Source: Herbidospora daliensis
GTDB taxonomy: Bacteria; Actinomycetota; Actinomycetes; Streptosporangiales; Streptosporangiaceae
NCBI RefSeq assembly: GCF_001570585.1
Contig: NZ_BBXF01000002.1
Location: 620,001 to 684,000 of the forward strand
Direction of reading: 5' to 3'
DNA: 64,000 nt
Made by a program: the position numbers and the translations under genes
Shown: positions 4,802 to 38,888 of the stretch, piece after piece
Numbering within the stretch: position 1 is the stretch's first letter
Layout of the letters: every line of letters begins with the position of its first letter
Notes under the pieces: generated by a model
Told to the model about the DNA's origin: nothing
What the model saw: only the letters and a program-made list of their open reading frames with translations
The model's database searches: none

Positions 4802-5469
4802 CCGCGGGCACCCGGGTGCCGCCGATCGCGCCACTCCGCGTACGCCGTCACCCGGGCCAGCGCCCCGACGGCCTGCTCGGGGTAGGCGTAACACGGCACC
4901 CGGCCGCCGACCAGCCCGTCGTGGCCGAGCACGCATGCCAGCGTGGTCACCTCGCGCTCGGCCGCCAGCACGGTCTTCCACGCCGTCCCGAGGTCCGACC
5001 CGAACGGCGCGACGACCAGACACGCGTCGGCGTCGTCGTCGGGCCCGCACGGCAGCAGCGGCGTGGCCGCGACGGTGTGCGGCAGGTCGCCGCCGACCGC
5101 CACCCGGCGGCCCGCCGGCAGCGGCTGGTAGGCCAGCAGCCGGACCGTGTCGACCAGATCACGCAGCCCCTCGACGAGGATCACCCCGGTGGCGCGGGCC
5201 AGCGCCGCCAGGCCCTCGGTCACGCCGGCGGGGGCGAGGACCACGATCGGCTTACGGCGGCTGACCCGCGCCGCGACCTGCGCGAACTCCCGGGGATCCC
5301 CCAGCGAGTCGACGACGATGACGGTCGTCAGCGGGTCGTCGCCCCAATGGGTGAGCATCTCCGCGTCGTCGGCCCGCACGTAGGAACACACCGGCAGCAC
5401 GTCGACTAGCGCCACCAGCACCGCCTCCGACCGTGCCAGCACGGCCACCTCACCAGGAATGGAAACCAC
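4798..5469 (-). CDS. Succinyl-CoA-ligase-like / acyl-CoA synthetase domain protein (no catalytic domain)
   Basis: A 223-residue protein shaped like the flavodoxin-like ligase part of ADP-forming acyl-CoA synthetases and PatZ/Pat-type enzymes: repeated hydrophobic strands (TTVIVVDSLG, KPIVVLAPAG, GVILVEGL) and the family-typical end YPEQAVGALARVTAYAEWRDRR. The ATP-grasp and GNAT parts of full-length enzymes are missing, so it is a stand-alone, probably regulatory or degenerate domain. Start is GTG. It is divergent from the DosS-like kinase gene, and the DosR-like box between them could serve both. Function unproven. Confidence 0.6.
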   Translation of the reverse strand: MVSIPGEVAVLARSEAVLVALVDVLPVCSYVRADDAEMLTHWGDDPLTTVIVVDSLGDPREFAQVAARVSRRKPIVVLAPAGVTEGLAALARATGVILVEGLRDLVDTVRLLAYQPLPAGRRVAVGGDLPHTVAATPLLPCGPDDDADACLVVAPFGSDLGTAWKTVLAAEREVTTLACVLGHDGLVGGRVPCYAYPEQAVGALARVTAYAEWRDRRHPGARG

Positions 5470-32731: not shown

Positions 32732-33610
32732 ATGCCTGAATTGCCCGAGGTGGAGTCGCTGGCCGAGTACCTGCGGGAACGTGCGGTCGGTCAGGTCGTG
32801 CAGGCCGTCGACGTGGTGGCCTTCTCGGCGCTGAAGACCGTTTCGCCCCAGATCTCCGCATTGGGCGGTCTTACCGTGACGACGGTCGCCCGCCACGGGA
32901 AGTTCCTCGATCTCGACTGCGACGGGATCCACCTCATCTTCCACCTCGCCCGCGGCGGCTGGCTTCGCTGGCGCGACGACCTCTCGGGCGCCAAGCCGGT
33001 CAGGCCGGGGAAGGGCCCGCTCGCCCTCCGGGTGCGGTTCGCCCCCGATCCGCTCGGCGTCGCCCCCGGCTTCGAGCTGACCGAGGCGGGCACCCAGAAA
33101 CGGCTGGCCGTATATGTCGCGACCGCGCCCGGCGACGTGCCGGGCATCGCAGCCCTCGGCCCCGATCCGCTGACGCCCTCGTTCACCGTCGAGACGCTGA
33201 CCTCGATCGTCGAGGGCAAGCGCACCCAGATCAAGGGCCTGCTGCGCGACCAGAAGATCATCGCCGGCATCGGGAACGCCTACTCCGACGAGGTGCTCCA
33301 CGCGGCGAAGATGTCTCCGTTCAAGGTCGCCTCGACCCTGACGCCCGAACAGATCTCCTCCCTGTACGACGCCATCGTCGTCACCCTGAAAGAGGCGATC
33401 GAGCGGGCCCGGGGCATCGCCGCCAAGGACCTGAAGGCCGAGAAGAAGTCGGGGCTTCGGGTGCACGGGCGTACCGGCGAGAAGTGCGAGGTGTGCGGCG
33501 ACACGGTGCGCGAGGTGTCGTTCGCCGACTCCTCGTTGCAGTACTGCCCGACCTGCCAGACGGGCGGGAAACCGCTGGCCGACCGGCGGATGAGCAAACT
33601 GCTCAAGTAG
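32732..33610 (+). CDS. Fpg/Nei family DNA glycosylase/AP lyase
   Basis: A 292-residue base-excision repair enzyme: catalytic N-terminus MPELPEVE (Pro2 nucleophile, Glu3 acid) after removal of Met, an H2TH region (IKGLLRDQKIIAGIGNAYSDEVLHAAKMSP), and a C-terminal zinc finger (CEVC...CPTC). Actinobacteria have several Fpg/Nei paralogues, so the lesion preference is open. TAGTCT lies 5 nt before the ATG, suggesting a leaderless mRNA. The rhodanese gene follows 27 bp later with its own leaderless signal. Confidence 0.93.
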   Translation: MPELPEVESLAEYLRERAVGQVVQAVDVVAFSALKTVSPQISALGGLTVTTVARHGKFLDLDCDGIHLIFHLARGGWLRWRDDLSGAKPVRPGKGPLALRVRFAPDPLGVAPGFELTEAGTQKRLAVYVATAPGDVPGIAALGPDPLTPSFTVETLTSIVEGKRTQIKGLLRDQKIIAGIGNAYSDEVLHAAKMSPFKVASTLTPEQISSLYDAIVVTLKEAIERARGIAAKDLKAEKKSGLRVHGRTGEKCEVCGDTVREVSFADSSLQYCPTCQTGGKPLADRRMSKLLK

Positions 33611-33637
33611 GGAGCAGCTGTCCCTACACTGGGGCGC

Positions 33638-33961
33638 ATGACTCTGCGGGACGTGCAACCGACCGGTGTGCCTGACGGCGCTTACCTGCTTGACGTGCGT
33701 GAACTCGACGAGTGGCGGGCCGGCCACGCCCCCTCGGCGACCCACATCCCGCTCGGCCAGCTGCAGAACCGGGTCGGCGAGGTGCCGCAGGGCCAGCCCG
33801 TTTACGTGATCTGCCGGGTCGGCGGCCGGTCGGCCCAGGCGGCGACCTGGCTCAACCACGTGGGCTGGGAAGCGGTCAACGTCGGCGGCGGCATGCAGTC
33901 GTGGGCGGCCTCGGGGCTGCCGATGCAGAGCGAGAGCGGCCAGCCGCCCTACGTGGCCTGA
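33638..33961 (+). CDS. Rhodanese-like domain protein
   Basis: A 107-residue single-domain rhodanese with the active Cys in ICRVGGRSAQAA (CxxGxR loop) and the usual LLDVRELDEWRAGHAPSATHIPLG start. It transfers sulfane sulfur or senses thiols. TACACT lies 7 nt before the ATG (leaderless). The 3' end overlaps the convergent CqsA-like gene by 13 bp. Confidence 0.93.
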   Translation: MTLRDVQPTGVPDGAYLLDVRELDEWRAGHAPSATHIPLGQLQNRVGEVPQGQPVYVICRVGGRSAQAATWLNHVGWEAVNVGGGMQSWAASGLPMQSESGQPPYVA

Positions 33962-35148
33962 CTTTCGCGCTTCCGGCTGGACAACCAGCCGGCCATGCCC
34001 GCCTCATTCCGTACTGCCGCGCAGGCGCGGATGATCTGTTCGGCGTGGGCGTCGGTGAGGCCGGCGTGCAGTGACAGGCGCAGCAGGGTGCGGGTGACCG
34101 AGGTCGCGGGCGGCACGAACACCGCGCCGAACACGTCGTGGCGTTCGAGCAGGTCGCGCAGGAGCATCACGTCGGCTTCCCGGCCGACCTCCAGGGCGAT
34201 GATCTGCTCGGTGCCCCCGCCCAGGTCGTAGCCGAGTTCGGCCAGTTCGGGCCGCAACCAGGCCGTCAGCTCCCGCAGCCGGGTGCGCCGGCCCTCCTCC
34301 TGGGCGACCAGGTCGAGGGCGGCGGCCAGCAGCGCGGTGTCGTGGGGCAGCAGGGCGCTGCTGAAGACGGCGGGGCCGGCTTCGTACTTGAAGTAGTCGA
34401 CGAATTCGGGATCGTCGCAGACGACCAGCCCGGCCCGGCCGGGGATCGCCTTCGACAGGCTGACCGTGCGGAACGCCACCCGGCCCTCCAGGCCCTCGGC
34501 GGCCACCAGGCCCTCGCCCCGCGCTCCGTGGGTGCCCACCGAGTGGGACTCGTCGACGACCAGCAGCGAGTCGTAGCGCTCGGCCACCTCGACGAACCGC
34601 GCCAGCGGGCAGCGGGAGCCGTGGGAGCTGTAGACCGAGTCGACGACCACGACGCCGGGGCCGTGGCGTTCGAGTCTGGCCGCCAGGTGGACCGGGTCGT
34701 TGTGCCGGAAGATCTTCATGGGGGCGCCCGCGAGCTGGACCCCGGTCCGCAACGAGGCGTGGGCCCGCTGGTCGAGGTAGACCGGCACGCCGGGCCCGGC
34801 GATCACCTGGATCAGGCCCGCGTTGGCCATCCAGCCCGACTGGCAGAGCACCCCGGCGGCGGCCTTGAGATGGCGGGCGAACGCGCCTTCGAGCAGGGTC
34901 TGCGGGTGGTCGTCGCGGAGGAAAGGCGCGGCCTGCAACGGCGCGGTCTCGCGGCCGATCGACCGGGCCATGGCGTCGAGCAGCCGGGGATGGCCGCTGA
35001 GGTCGAGGTAGTCGTTGCGGGTCAGCACGATCGAGGACGGGCCGGGCGCGCGCCCTTGCAGCGCCCGGCGGCCCGCCCACGTCGCGGTCACCCGGTCTCG
35101 GTGGAAGGCGTCGAGCCGGCTCTGGAGGTGGTCGCGCGCCCCGCCCAC
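33949..35148 (-). CDS. CqsA-like PLP-dependent alpha-oxoamine synthase (autoinducer-synthase type)
   Basis: A 399-residue fold-type I PLP enzyme. It has the CqsA/alpha-oxoamine synthase signatures: VLTRNDYLDLSGHP, CQSGWMANAGLIQ, VVVVDSVYSSHGSRCPL, VVDESHSVGTHGARGEGL (Asp199, His202) and SLSKAIPGRAG with the PLP Lys233 (Lys236 in Vibrio CqsA), then FGAVFVPPATS near the end. The similarity to Vibrio CqsA (alpha-aminoketone/CAI-1 synthase) spans the whole length and is closer than to KBL or AONS. It should join an acyl-CoA to SAM or an amino acid. It follows the EF-hand gene by 1 base, so they form an operon. Confidence 0.85.
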   Translation of the reverse strand: MGGARDHLQSRLDAFHRDRVTATWAGRRALQGRAPGPSSIVLTRNDYLDLSGHPRLLDAMARSIGRETAPLQAAPFLRDDHPQTLLEGAFARHLKAAAGVLCQSGWMANAGLIQVIAGPGVPVYLDQRAHASLRTGVQLAGAPMKIFRHNDPVHLAARLERHGPGVVVVDSVYSSHGSRCPLARFVEVAERYDSLLVVDESHSVGTHGARGEGLVAAEGLEGRVAFRTVSLSKAIPGRAGLVVCDDPEFVDYFKYEAGPAVFSSALLPHDTALLAAALDLVAQEEGRRTRLRELTAWLRPELAELGYDLGGGTEQIIALEVGREADVMLLRDLLERHDVFGAVFVPPATSVTRTLLRLSLHAGLTDAHAEQIIRACAAVRNEAGMAGWLSSRKRESQAT

Positions 35149-35149
35149 G

Positions 35150-35692
35150 TCAGATCCGCCCGAGCAGCGCCGAGCCGTAGGCCGCCGGGTCTTCGCTGCA
35201 GAAGTAGCCCTCGACCGCGCGGTGCACCTCCCCGAAGGACAACGCGCCCGCGTTCGCGGCGTCGAGCTGGTCGAAGGCGTGTTCGCCGTCCTCCTCGGGG
35301 AGGCCGAAGGCGCTGTTCATGGTGGTGACGTATTCGGCGCGGGTGAGCACGCCGTCTCCGTCGGTGTCGGCGAGCTGGAGGAACGCCTGCGCCACCGGCT
35401 GCACTCTTTGGTAGCCGTCGGGCAGGCCGAGGATCGTCTTGCGGTGGGCGGTCAGGTATTCGTGGAAGTCGAGGCCGGCGTCGCCGTCGAGGTCCATCGG
35501 CGCGTAGACCTCCTGCCACAGGGCGGTGTAGCTCTGCCGGATGGCGATGCTCTCGTCGGAGGCCGGGCTCCAGCCGAAGGCCGTCGCGGCCCGGTTGGCC
35601 GCCGCGGTGAAGTCGGCGAGGGTCAGGACGTCGTCGCCGTCGGCGTCGAGCAGGGTGAAGAACTTGTGCATCTTGCGGCTGTAGTGATCCAC
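35150..35692 (-). CDS. EF-hand calcium-binding protein (calerythrin-like)
   Basis: A 180-residue soluble protein with four EF-hand loops: 16-27 (DADGDDVLTLAD), 67-78 (DLDGDAGLDFHE) and 109-120 (DTDGDGVLTRAE) are canonical or nearly so; 144-155 (DAANAGALSFGE) lacks the ligands at positions 3 and 5. Three working and one dead site resembles calerythrin of Saccharopolyspora, although there a different loop is dead. Ca2+ buffering or sensing is likely. Start GTG after AGGAAG. A -35/-10 pair lies upstream and the CqsA-like gene follows directly. Confidence 0.9.
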   Translation of the reverse strand: MDHYSRKMHKFFTLLDADGDDVLTLADFTAAANRAATAFGWSPASDESIAIRQSYTALWQEVYAPMDLDGDAGLDFHEYLTAHRKTILGLPDGYQRVQPVAQAFLQLADTDGDGVLTRAEYVTTMNSAFGLPEEDGEHAFDQLDAANAGALSFGEVHRAVEGYFCSEDPAAYGSALLGRI

Positions 35693-35724
35693 GAGGCTTC
35701 CTCTCAGTGAGACGACGATTACCG

Positions 35725-35753
35725 AGAGTAAATAGCGAAGATCGGGCTGTTAA
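35725..35753 (-). promoter_or_regulatory. Probable promoter of the EF-hand/CqsA-like operon
   Basis: On the minus strand TTAACA (35753-35748) and TACTCT (35730-35725) are 17 bp apart, a good sigma-70-type match, about 32 bp upstream of the GTG. Confidence 0.55.
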
Positions 35754-35771
35754 TGGCCGCGGGGATAGGGT

Positions 35772-36269
35772 TCACATCCGGTAGTAACCGAGCAGGTCGT
35801 CGAGCGCGTTCACCGGGTCGATCCTGACGACGGTCCCGGTCTTGTACGCGTTGATCATCTTGCCGTCGCCGATGTAGACGCCGACGTGGTGGGTGCGCTT
35901 GGCCGTGCCGAAGAAGACCAGGTCGCCGGGGGCCGGAACGGGCGCCTCGCGCAGCCTGCGCAGGTGGTCGTCGGTCGTGCCGGGGCCCAGCACGTCGTGG
36001 TCGTAGGCGATCTCGTAGACCCAGCGGGCGAGCCCGGAGCAGTCGAGGCCGGTGGTGCGCTCGGCCGGGCACGGCTTGATGTCGCCCCGGTAACCCCGGC
36101 AGGTGCCCGGCGACGGCCCGGCGCTCCCGGCGTGACCGCCGCCCCACGAGTAGGGGTACTGCCCGATCAGCGCGTACGCCGAAGCGAGGATCTGGGCCCG
36201 TTCGTCCGGCCGGGGAACCGACGCCACCGCGAAGACCAGGATCAGTGCCGCGATCACGGAAATCTTCAT
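35772..36269 (-). CDS. Secreted NlpC/P60 cell-wall peptidase
   Basis: A 165-residue exported protein: signal peptide (about 1-20, MKISVIAALILVFAVASV) and an NlpC/P60 domain with the catalytic Cys in TTGLDCSGLARWVYE and His in THHVGVYIGDG. It cleaves peptide bonds of peptidoglycan stems. TAGGCT lies exactly 7 nt before the ATG, a leaderless signal that supports this start over longer frames. The central insert (GGGHAGSAGPSPGTCRGYRG) with extra cysteines is unusual. Confidence 0.88.
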   Translation of the reverse strand: MKISVIAALILVFAVASVPRPDERAQILASAYALIGQYPYSWGGGHAGSAGPSPGTCRGYRGDIKPCPAERTTGLDCSGLARWVYEIAYDHDVLGPGTTDDHLRRLREAPVPAPGDLVFFGTAKRTHHVGVYIGDGKMINAYKTGTVVRIDPVNALDDLLGYYRM

Positions 36270-36345
36270 CGATATGAGCCTATGGGTGACAGTCGTCATC
36301 CGCGGTCGGTGTTGATCGCGTCTGGCGGCGGGCGCCACGTACGGG

Positions 36346-36370
36346 CGAAACTTTTAGGTGAAAAGTTTCG
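36346..36370. promoter_or_regulatory. 10-bp inverted repeat upstream of the ThuA gene
   Basis: CGAAACTTTT-AGGTG-AAAAGTTTCG is a perfect inverted repeat between the NlpC and ThuA genes. It may be a LacI/TetR-type operator. A TTGACA lies about 35 bp further toward the ThuA gene. Confidence 0.4.
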
Positions 36371-36509
36371 TCGATGAAAATCAGAAGTCCGTAAGATCGT
36401 TGACAAATGTGTGGGACGAAGTTCACACTCTCGACATTCATCGCGTTAGGCATTGGGTCGGCACTCAGACGCGATGGAGTTCCTGTACGACCCGAAAAAG
36501 AGGAGCGAC

Positions 36510-38888
36510 ATGCCGTCCTCTCGCCCCCGTCCCACCCGATCGTTAGCCACTGCCCTGCTGGCAGTGCCCGCCTTGCTGCTCGGCACCCCCGGCGTAGCCC
36601 TCGCCGCCGAGACCGGAGCCCCGCCCGTCCTCGACGTCGCCACGCTCTCCCCGGTCCACCCCGTCCCGAACTACAACGGCGTGGCCAACAACGCATATGT
36701 GACCTCAACCAGCACCGGCCCCGGCGGCTGGTTCACCGGCAACGACGTCACGCTGAACCTCTCGGCGACCGACGACGACGCCGTCAACCTGTTCCGGGTG
36801 ACCGTCGCGGGCGTCACCGTCGAGGTGCCCGCCGTCCGGAACGGCAACCGGGGCACCGCCCAGCACGTGATCAGCGGAGACCGCAACGGCAGCGTGAGTT
36901 ACGTCGCCGTCGACGCGGCCGGCAACGCCTCGGCCTCGCGGTCGATCACCGTGCGCATCGACACCAAGGTGCCGGTGGCCGCCTGGCCCGGCATCCCCAA
37001 CGGCAAGGTCGCGCACAGCGCGCTGCCCGCGGCCATCACCCCGACCCGTACCGACCCCACCCCCGGTGCGGGCGGCGCGGCGGTCCGGGACATGTGGATC
37101 GACGGCGTCTGGACCTACCCGATGCCGCTCGACCTGGCCACCCTCTCCGTGGGCCAGCACACCTGGGCGGTCAACGTCGGCGACTCCGCCGGCAACGCCG
37201 CCAAGTACACCCTGACCTTCGAGATCACCACCTCGATCGCCGACCTGCGCGCGCTGGTCCAGCGCTACGTCACGGCCGGCAAGGTCTCCGCCGCCAACGG
37301 CAACCGCCTGCTGGCGCTGCTGACCGAGGCCGAGGCCGGCTCCGCCGAGGCGTCTCTGGTCAAGTTCGGCGCGCTGGCCGCGAAGGTGACCCCCGCCGGC
37401 TACATGCGGGACTCGCTGGTCAAGGACGCCGCCTGGCTCGTCGAGGAGCTGCAGGGCGTCGACCACCCCGACGTCGTCACCGGCGTCGCGGTCAGCGCCG
37501 GCCAGGGCATGGAACGTTACCCGTTCCGCGCTCCGGGCGAGGCCGTGCGCAACAACCGGCCCAAGTTCAAGGTCCTGCTGTTCGGCAACCGTCCGGGCGC
37601 CTTCCGGCACGAGCACATCCCGGCCACGATGGCGATGATCCAGGACCTCGGCCGCGCCAACTCGTTCGACGTCGACGTGTACGACTACCTCAGCCCCGAG
37701 GTGTCGGTCGCGGGCAACCCGTTCGAGAGCGCCGAGCGCCTGTCGCAGTACGACGCCCTGATCGGCGTCTCCAGCGTCGGCAACGACGTGTTCGTCACCA
37801 ACCGCCCCTCGACGACCACCCCCGGCGCCACGGTCGACGAGCAGGCCGCGCTGCAGACCTACATCCGCAACGGCGGCGGCTTCGTCGCCATCCACGGCGC
37901 GACCGACTCCATGCACAACTGGGACTGGTACAAGAACCTGGTCGGCGGCGAGTTCGACAACCACGGTTCCAACGCCGGCGGCATCCAGAACACCTGTGGC
38001 GGCTGCGTCATCGGCGAACTGGTCACCGAGGACGACACCCACCCGTCCACCCGTCACTTCGAGAAGAAGATGCCGGTCATGGACGAGCTGTACAACTGGC
38101 GGGGCTTCCTCCCCCGCGAGAAGGTGCACGTCCTGCAGACGCTGACCGAGTCGACCTACGTGTCGGGCATCGGCAACAGCGCCGGCCGCGTCGAGGGCGC
38201 CGACCACCCGATCTCGTGGTGCGCCAACTACGACGGCGGGCGTTCGTTCACCCAGGCGCTCATGCACAACTGGAAGAACACCGCCGACCCGATCTTCCAG
38301 AAGAACATCCTGGAAGGCATCAAGTGGGCCGCCGGCGCCACCTCCGGCAACTGCGTCACCCACGTCGAGATGCGCGCGCTGGTCGCCGCCGGCGTGACCG
38401 ACGGATCGGTCGACACCGCTCTGGCCGCCACGCTGAACGGCGCGATCGACGCTTCGTACAACGCCTACCTGGTCAAGGACTACGTCGAGGCCATGGAGCA
38501 GGCCAAGGTCGTCCGCCGCGAGGTGAAGGCCAACCTGCCCGGCGCCGACAACACCCCGATCCGGGAGCGTGCGAAGGAACTGGCCGAGTGGATGAAGGTG
38601 CTCGCCGACGAGGCGATCATCCTGCGCTTCCAGTCGGAGCCCGTGTCCGCCACCCACGCCGCCGGTGACGACGCGGTCTTCGCGGCGCCCGCCGAGGGCC
38701 AGAACGTCGCCTACCAGTGGCAGGTCAAGGCCCCGGGTTCGGCCGACTGGGCCGACGTCGCCGGCCAGACCTCGTTCGCGATCGCCCTGACCGCGACGCC
38801 GGAACTGGACGGCTCCGAGTACCGGGTCCGCGCCACCGACCCGACCGGCGAGATCGTCTCGCGCTCGGCGGTTCTGCGGGTCGGCTGA
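36510..38888 (+). CDS. Large secreted ThuA-domain protein
   Basis: A 792-residue exported protein: signal peptide (about 1-33), an Ig-like/bacterial cohesin-type region (about 45-235), a helical segment repeated after the ThuA core (DLRALVQRYVTAGKVS and again MRALVAAGVTDGSVD), the ThuA domain (about 350-607; VLLFGNRPGAFRHEHIPATM, GGGFVAIHGATDS) and a C-terminal Ig-like domain (about 710-792). ThuA is a glutamine-amidotransferase-like trehalose-utilisation fold; related secreted proteins act on sugars. AGAGGAG precedes the ATG. The exact substrate is unknown. Confidence 0.88.
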   Translation: MPSSRPRPTRSLATALLAVPALLLGTPGVALAAETGAPPVLDVATLSPVHPVPNYNGVANNAYVTSTSTGPGGWFTGNDVTLNLSATDDDAVNLFRVTVAGVTVEVPAVRNGNRGTAQHVISGDRNGSVSYVAVDAAGNASASRSITVRIDTKVPVAAWPGIPNGKVAHSALPAAITPTRTDPTPGAGGAAVRDMWIDGVWTYPMPLDLATLSVGQHTWAVNVGDSAGNAAKYTLTFEITTSIADLRALVQRYVTAGKVSAANGNRLLALLTEAEAGSAEASLVKFGALAAKVTPAGYMRDSLVKDAAWLVEELQGVDHPDVVTGVAVSAGQGMERYPFRAPGEAVRNNRPKFKVLLFGNRPGAFRHEHIPATMAMIQDLGRANSFDVDVYDYLSPEVSVAGNPFESAERLSQYDALIGVSSVGNDVFVTNRPSTTTPGATVDEQAALQTYIRNGGGFVAIHGATDSMHNWDWYKNLVGGEFDNHGSNAGGIQNTCGGCVIGELVTEDDTHPSTRHFEKKMPVMDELYNWRGFLPREKVHVLQTLTESTYVSGIGNSAGRVEGADHPISWCANYDGGRSFTQALMHNWKNTADPIFQKNILEGIKWAAGATSGNCVTHVEMRALVAAGVTDGSVDTALAATLNGAIDASYNAYLVKDYVEAMEQAKVVRREVKANLPGADNTPIRERAKELAEWMKVLADEAIILRFQSEPVSATHAAGDDAVFAAPAEGQNVAYQWQVKAPGSADWADVAGQTSFAIALTATPELDGSEYRVRATDPTGEIVSRSAVLRVG

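Follow-up and report, generated by a model that had tools for sequence, protein, structure and literature searches.

The window analysed here, a stretch of 64,000 nucleotides from Herbidospora daliensis, carries a gene for a CqsA-like PLP enzyme directly behind a gene for an EF-hand protein, and it raises the question of whether an enzyme related to autoinducer synthases is tied to Ca2+ in an actinobacterium. Our answer, which we hold to be fairly probable, is that the two genes form a module in which a Ca2+-binding partner controls an alkyl α-aminoketone synthase or handles its product. As the preliminary description had it, the 180-residue EF-hand protein is encoded one base ahead of the synthase: both genes lie on the minus strand, with the EF-hand gene upstream and a single base between its stop and the synthase start (Table 1). 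The pair is flanked by a convergent rhodanese gene, an NlpC/P60 gene upstream on the same strand and a gene for a ThuA-domain protein (Pfam assignments). The source genome comprises 8.52 Mb in 18 contigs, and the nearest named loci are those of Herbidospora yilanensis (92% identity over the synthase) and H. cretacea (90%). Because the close pairing is a conserved feature, the two genes are probably co-expressed.

Table 1 Features of the synthase/EF-hand locus (positions in the window).
Feature	Position	Strand	Basis
CqsA/LqsA-type α-oxoamine synthase, 399 aa, GTG start	33949..35148	-	NF005526, tree, structure
Lys233 codon (residue aligns with V. cholerae CqsA Lys236)	34450..34452	-	Alignment column; coordinates from gene start
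EF-hand protein, SCP/CabC fold, 180 aa, GTG start	35150..35692	-	Pfam EF-hand, CabC 3aka
EF loop 4, residues 144-155, degenerate	35228..35263	-	Alignment
EF loop 3, residues 109-120, canonical	35333..35368	-	By eye
EF loop 2, residues 67-78, canonical	35459..35494	-	By eye
EF loop 1, residues 16-27, canonical, Asp at position 12	35612..35647	-	By eye
Presumed control region, 79-base gap ahead of the pair	35693..35771	-	Three-species alignment, well conserved

Family and predicted chemistry of the synthase

The synthase scored 447 bits against NF005526, the model for α-hydroxyketone-type quorum-sensing autoinducer synthases, and passed its curated cut-off of 428, while staying below the cut-offs of the remaining 11 models listed beside it. 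That the synthase is really a primary-metabolic KBL, AONS or SPT with a mere likeness to CqsA is highly improbable. These enzymes belong to the same fold superfamily and their models match the synthase too, but the scores are far below the cut-offs (217 against 426 bits for bioF, 171 against 460 and 135 against 493 for the KBL models, 185 against 500 for SPT, with ALAS also far below). Among alignment columns that are constant in four proteobacterial CqsA sequences and rare in ten outgroup proteins, the synthase carries 33 of 52, against 2 of 30 columns diagnostic of the outgroup; the same count for four outgroup proteins, which had themselves helped to define the columns, gave 0 to 8 of the 52. 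In a careful phylogenetic tree, 35 CqsA-type rows including Vibrio CqsA were separated from 10 KBL/AONS/SPT-like rows with 100 UFBoot and 100 SH-aLRT support, the outgroup being drawn from the genomes of relatives, classed with NCBIfam and containing no characterised SPT or ALAS. The long-branch sequence L160 and 30 of the 38 rows of genus g82 (see below) were omitted from this tree; a quick tree holds all of them. The curated cut-offs and the tree rule out a placement with KBL/AONS, and the synthase stands with Vibrio CqsA, as first proposed.

The structural comparisons gave the same picture. The V. cholerae CqsA chains were the best matches in a PDB sequence search (E 1.6e-77), followed by the SPT group (1.6e-35), and they also supplied the six top Foldseek matches of an AlphaFold model of the synthase (pLDDT 88). 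The motifs VVDSVYSSHGS and FGAVFVPPATS and the lysine named in the preliminary description, Lys233, are all present, and in the region of the VDESHS motif Ser201 and Ser203 are in place. Lys233 aligns with Lys236, the PLP lysine of V. cholerae CqsA. Nine residues are named as the decanoyl pocket of that enzyme in PMC3285556, and four of the nine are identical in the window synthase (F76, F262, P347 and A348), although two of the four identical residues (listed as F264 and P348) are also constant in the outgroup. Three further positions are conservative, and the differences are H30 to Arg and C346 to Val. Because pocket residues differ, the acyl chain length, and perhaps the amino donor too, may differ from those of CqsA.

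CqsA uses S-adenosylmethionine (SAM) and acyl-CoA and loses methylthioadenosine and CO2, according to PMC10491745. By analogy, the chemistry of the window synthase may be like that of CqsA: judged from its family, it would condense a fatty acyl-CoA with an amino-acid donor by means of PLP, the donor being SAM in V. cholerae, and the product would be an alkyl α-aminoketone or an enaminone.

The curated model, the tree, the diagnostic columns and the fold place the synthase in one enzyme family with Vibrio CqsA and with LqsA and JqsA of Legionella and Janthinobacterium, the likeness having been compared with Vibrio, Cupriavidus and Tistrella sequences and not with LqsA and JqsA themselves. It is about 38% identical to V. 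cholerae CqsA, from which it differs in being actinobacterial and in being paired with an EF-hand gene, and 48.7% identical to CqsA of Cupriavidus sp. EM10, which has a similar C-terminal tail. We considered whether this tail might be a calmodulin-binding element peculiar to EF-linked synthases, but rejected the idea, as the same W/R-rich C-terminus occurs in Cupriavidus and in two streptomycete proteins without an EF-hand partner. The preliminary description had given the family as known from Vibrio and Legionella; both are correct, but the range was drawn too narrowly, since JqsA of Janthinobacterium and homologs from other proteobacteria and from CPR/DPANN organisms have been published (PMC3566124, PMC3376566 and PMC7567580).

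The EF-hand protein and the upstream region

The EF-hand protein matches the Pfam EF-hand model and CabC (3aka, E 1.3e-18). Three intact Ca2+ loops had been reported for it, a count that our inspection by eye bears out, and with three of four loops canonical the protein is a predicted Ca2+ binder. Loops 2 and 3 are retained in 8/8 partners of the two main groups of linked loci described below (by eye); loop 4 is canonical in five of the six Streptomycetaceae partners (by eye), unlike in the window protein. The AlphaFold model (pLDDT 88.6) is a compact four-EF-hand fold of the SCP/CabC type, and its Foldseek matches include calexcitin, juvenile hormone (JH) diol kinase, Nereis SCP and CabC (TM over query 0.89, 0.86, 0.83 and 0.75, respectively), together with coelenterazine-binding protein, sarcoplasmic Ca2+-binding proteins, obelin and aequorin.

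Some members of the SCP fold bind lipophilic small molecules. Coelenterazine-binding protein, aequorin/obelin and okadaic acid binding protein 2.1 are EF-hand proteins that hold such a molecule, and the window protein is alike in fold (Foldseek), with identities below 25%. CabC of Streptomyces coelicolor shares the fold and the four-hand layout (TM 0.74-0.75 over query, 32-33% identity) but branches elsewhere in the EF-hand tree, and it reportedly has a part in Ca2+-linked spore germination (PMC5693915). In actinomycetes Ca2+ is reported to influence both aerial growth and the germination of spores; the accessible text of PMC5693915 and PMC10574481 names no enzyme target for the EF-hand proteins.

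Upstream of the pair, an inverted repeat at 35701-35728 (eight pairs, one of them G-U) overlaps the ribosome-binding region of the EF-hand gene. The exact 8-base form of the repeat was found only in the H. yilanensis loci; H. cretacea has a shorter one. A possible RNA hairpin ahead of the EF-hand start codon was not clearly more stable than shuffled sequences (z-scores -0.28, -1.16 and -0.89). The good -35/-10 pair that had been described ahead of both genes was not recovered, as a scan of 33500-36600 found no sigma-70-type pair.

Distribution and history of the pair

We collected 65 cqsA-type loci: 49 places from a draw of the family, 12 from Streptomycetaceae and 4 from a plasmid collection. 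In the family draw, 46/341 genomes had a match at E<=1e-90 and 26/341 one over the curated cut-off, and all 49 synthase places were fetched. The 12 distinct Streptomycetaceae genomes (E<=1e-75) came from overlapping draws of a class (3/394), a genus (5/392) and the Streptomycetaceae (9/384), and a draw of the phylum gave 1/346, namely the genome of the window itself; these four draws are samples of larger groups. Of seven synthase matches in the plasmid collection four were fetched, and H5-H7 (Vibrio) were left out. Phage records held no copy of the synthase at E<=1e-20.

With a profile run against all ORFs, an EF-hand gene was found as the first or second neighbor of the synthase in 9/65 loci. 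These are all three window-type Herbidospora loci and 6/12 Streptomycetaceae loci. No linked EF-hand gene accompanies the second Herbidospora paralogue (0/6), the g82 synthases of the same family (0/38), those of g4 (0/2) or the plasmid loci (0/4); g82 appears to be Actinomadura and, likewise by inference, g50 Streptomyces. Recurrence of the linkage in relatives, which the preliminary description had set as a test, is thus seen in 3/7 genomes of the genus and in half of the cqsA-bearing Streptomycetaceae, and it is not universal. Since 56/65 loci have no EF-hand neighbor, the partner is not required by the synthase family. No EF-hand gene stood beside other AOS/PLP synthases in 32 loci, whose flanks were smaller.

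The Herbidospora pairs are co-directional with a one-base gap in 3/3, while the Streptomycetaceae pairs are divergent and about 107-187 bases apart, except in the weakest case, L171, where the distance is 312 bases and the gene caller puts an 82-aa ORF between the two genes. The 65 loci contain ten EF-hand ORFs, and none lies farther from the synthase than the second called gene (eight are immediate neighbors, two are second); such clustering among 915 non-synthase called genes has P of about 5e-6 in a calculation that ignores relatedness. The linked proteins match partly by construction, because the profile was built from linked and unlinked ones; an earlier five-seed profile picked up four linked EF-hand proteins unseen. 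EF-hand genes are few: the 19 genomes searched had between 1 and 19 domain matches each at E<=1e-4, numbers that are undercounts because this search missed the window's own gene. One streptomycete locus has a second EF-hand ORF near the synthase (L152:6282-7649), with an MGS-like domain at its C-terminus.

The pair could instead be accidental: the synthase would be a true CqsA relative, and the EF-hand gene beside it a chance neighbor or a passenger of the same transferred segment that encodes a general Ca2+ buffer. The many loci without an EF-hand gene speak for this, as does the description of calerythrin and CabB as Ca2+ buffers and/or transporters in the accessible text of PMC10574481. We nevertheless judge it unlikely, because the pairing recurs in non-monophyletic synthase lineages and in two orientations, because loops 2 and 3 are kept in all main-group partners, and because the genomes with the five main streptomycete pairs share no further syntenic neighbor; between their flanks, 2/10 genome comparisons gave a single distant match (26% identity in one, 35% in the other), in unlike positions. 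Within these five pairs the synthase and EF-hand identities co-diverge (Mantel r 0.75, with 4/120 permutations as high).

The two main groups comprise eight EF-linked synthases, for which a single clade was rejected (AU p 1.2e-4). The Herbidospora ones cluster with g82 and g4 (100/99), and the streptomycete ones, with weaker support, with the second Herbidospora paralogue (89/86). For the eight EF-hand partners of the same groups, one clade was not rejected (p 0.44). A single origin of all nine partners was rejected once L171 was included (p 1.7e-48): its EF-hand protein comes from another lineage, and L159 and L161, which are close to this sixth streptomycete case, have no EF-hand gene. Since the EF-linked synthases fall into separate lineages, there are two possible histories: an ancient pair that has often been lost, or at least two recruitments of an EF-hand partner.

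In the genus, both genes are absent together from the four genomes without the pair, and rhodanese adjoins NlpC/P60 there. The empty site of G002 (L155, about 5432-5449) retains a remnant resembling the 3' end of the synthase, which reads as loss of both genes in one step; the other three sites have no such remnant. The seventh genus genome, G006, encodes an unlinked EF-hand protein 34% identical to that of the window, and no synthase of the family over the cut-off.

The second CqsA-type paralogue of the window's genome lies at G000:C9:228662-229786 (L042:7567-8793). It occurs in all six synthase-bearing genomes of the genus, with an α/β hydrolase gene just upstream in 5/6 loci (Pfam, one representative). 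The g82 synthases (L074-L113 except L102 and L109) are a large subfamily that occupies one syntenic site in most loci. They have changed columns, for example Gln106 to Pro and Phe79 to Cys (V. cholerae numbering), and their activity may differ. In G936, the synthase lies in apparent terminal repeats, with one copy near each contig end (C1:4345-5472 and C1:11535364-11536491).

Receptor, product and the possible role of calcium

The preliminary description had seen no CqsS-like receptor in the window, and a profile search found none in the whole genome either. With a seven-row profile of the CqsS-type sensor domain (E<=0.1), none of 21 actinobacterial genomes gave a match, and an earlier three-row profile gave 0/24. 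Both held-out controls were found (Tistrella, 1.4e-33; Paraburkholderia, 9.4e-27), but a far more divergent sensor could be missed because tblastn with a single row of the profile had served to choose both. With no CqsS-type sensor found, the Cqs/Lqs quorum-sensing system is incomplete in the window's genome, in contrast to the Vibrio Cqs system with its cognate CqsS and to Cupriavidus sp. EM10, in which cqsA is followed by an adjacent gene with a CqsS-type sensor domain. In Paraburkholderia caribensis (L210:1352-4993), the gene ahead of a CqsS-type sensor resembles ketoacyl-ACP synthase III; this is perhaps a case of a different signal read by the same sensor fold.

The apparent lack of a sensor also fits a reading in which the product serves as a building block, for example a precursor of a pyrazine, a lipid or an antibiotic, rather than as a signal, and in which the EF-hand fold is recruited by lipid-handling enzymes generally. 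This account is compatible with the module described above and differs from it on the role of the product; we regard it as a real but tentative possibility. It draws on the settings of EF-hand relatives elsewhere. In the plasmid collection, 14/29 matching records were opened, two of them without annotation, and in at least three (L200-L202) no enzyme of the kinds named below stood directly beside the EF-hand relative. In three Streptomyces plasmids (L191-L193, 3878-5276), the EF-hand gene lies 130 bases upstream of an iron-containing redox enzyme, which is haem-oxygenase-like by Pfam (run on one of the three, L191). A further Streptomyces plasmid (L194:1966-3384) encodes an MpaB-type oxygenase that ends in a fused EF-hand domain akin to the EF-hand protein of the window, and six further plasmid matches bear the product name of this fusion. 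Other relatives adjoin genes for an acyl-CoA dehydrogenase and a P450, or for a cyclodipeptide synthase and a P450. These settings are suggestive of a general role of EF-hand relatives with enzymes of lipophilic substrates. On the other side, no other biosynthetic gene is common to the five unrelated contexts of the streptomycete pairs, so these loci do not encode a longer pathway in common.

Two observations concern synthases without an EF-hand partner. An MpaB-type gene adjoins the synthase in 23/38 g82 loci (by clustering, with Pfam on one representative), and one CqsA-type gene (L154:6562-8311) lies beside apparent ketosynthase and acyl carrier protein genes (by eye).

For the pair as a module, the linkage suggests co-production of the EF-hand protein and the synthase. 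The EF-hand protein would couple the enzyme to Ca2+, whether by regulating it or by binding its lipophilic product. The compound would then act with no receptor of the CqsS type: it could be a developmental signal perceived in another way, or a precursor. The product may serve as a signal, and Ca2+ may control it. Against the module stand the many loci without an EF-hand gene, the limited match of the acyl pocket, the separate lineage of the L171 partner and the unlinked EF-hand protein of G006. A more specific form of this idea, which we think rather improbable, makes the EF-hand protein a Ca2+-controlled soluble binder or receptor for the alkyl aminoketone that replaces the CqsS kinase, in the manner of coelenterazine-binding protein. 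If it held, actinobacteria would have a Cqs variant without a kinase receptor, in which Ca2+ gates the capture or the release of a fatty ketone, and the small EF-hand fold would be a detachable Ca2+ module common to enzymes of lipophilic compounds.

We found no work in the open-licence literature that joins CqsA with an EF-hand protein or with actinobacterial genes, which does not prove that none exists. The occurrence of the pairing in distantly related soil bacteria as well suggests that Ca2+ is tied to the making or handling of a fatty ketone. An autoinducer enzyme family known mainly from proteobacteria is now found in actinobacteria without its usual receptor, and its recurring pairing with an EF-hand gene names one enzyme and one class of small molecules as candidates for Ca2+ action.
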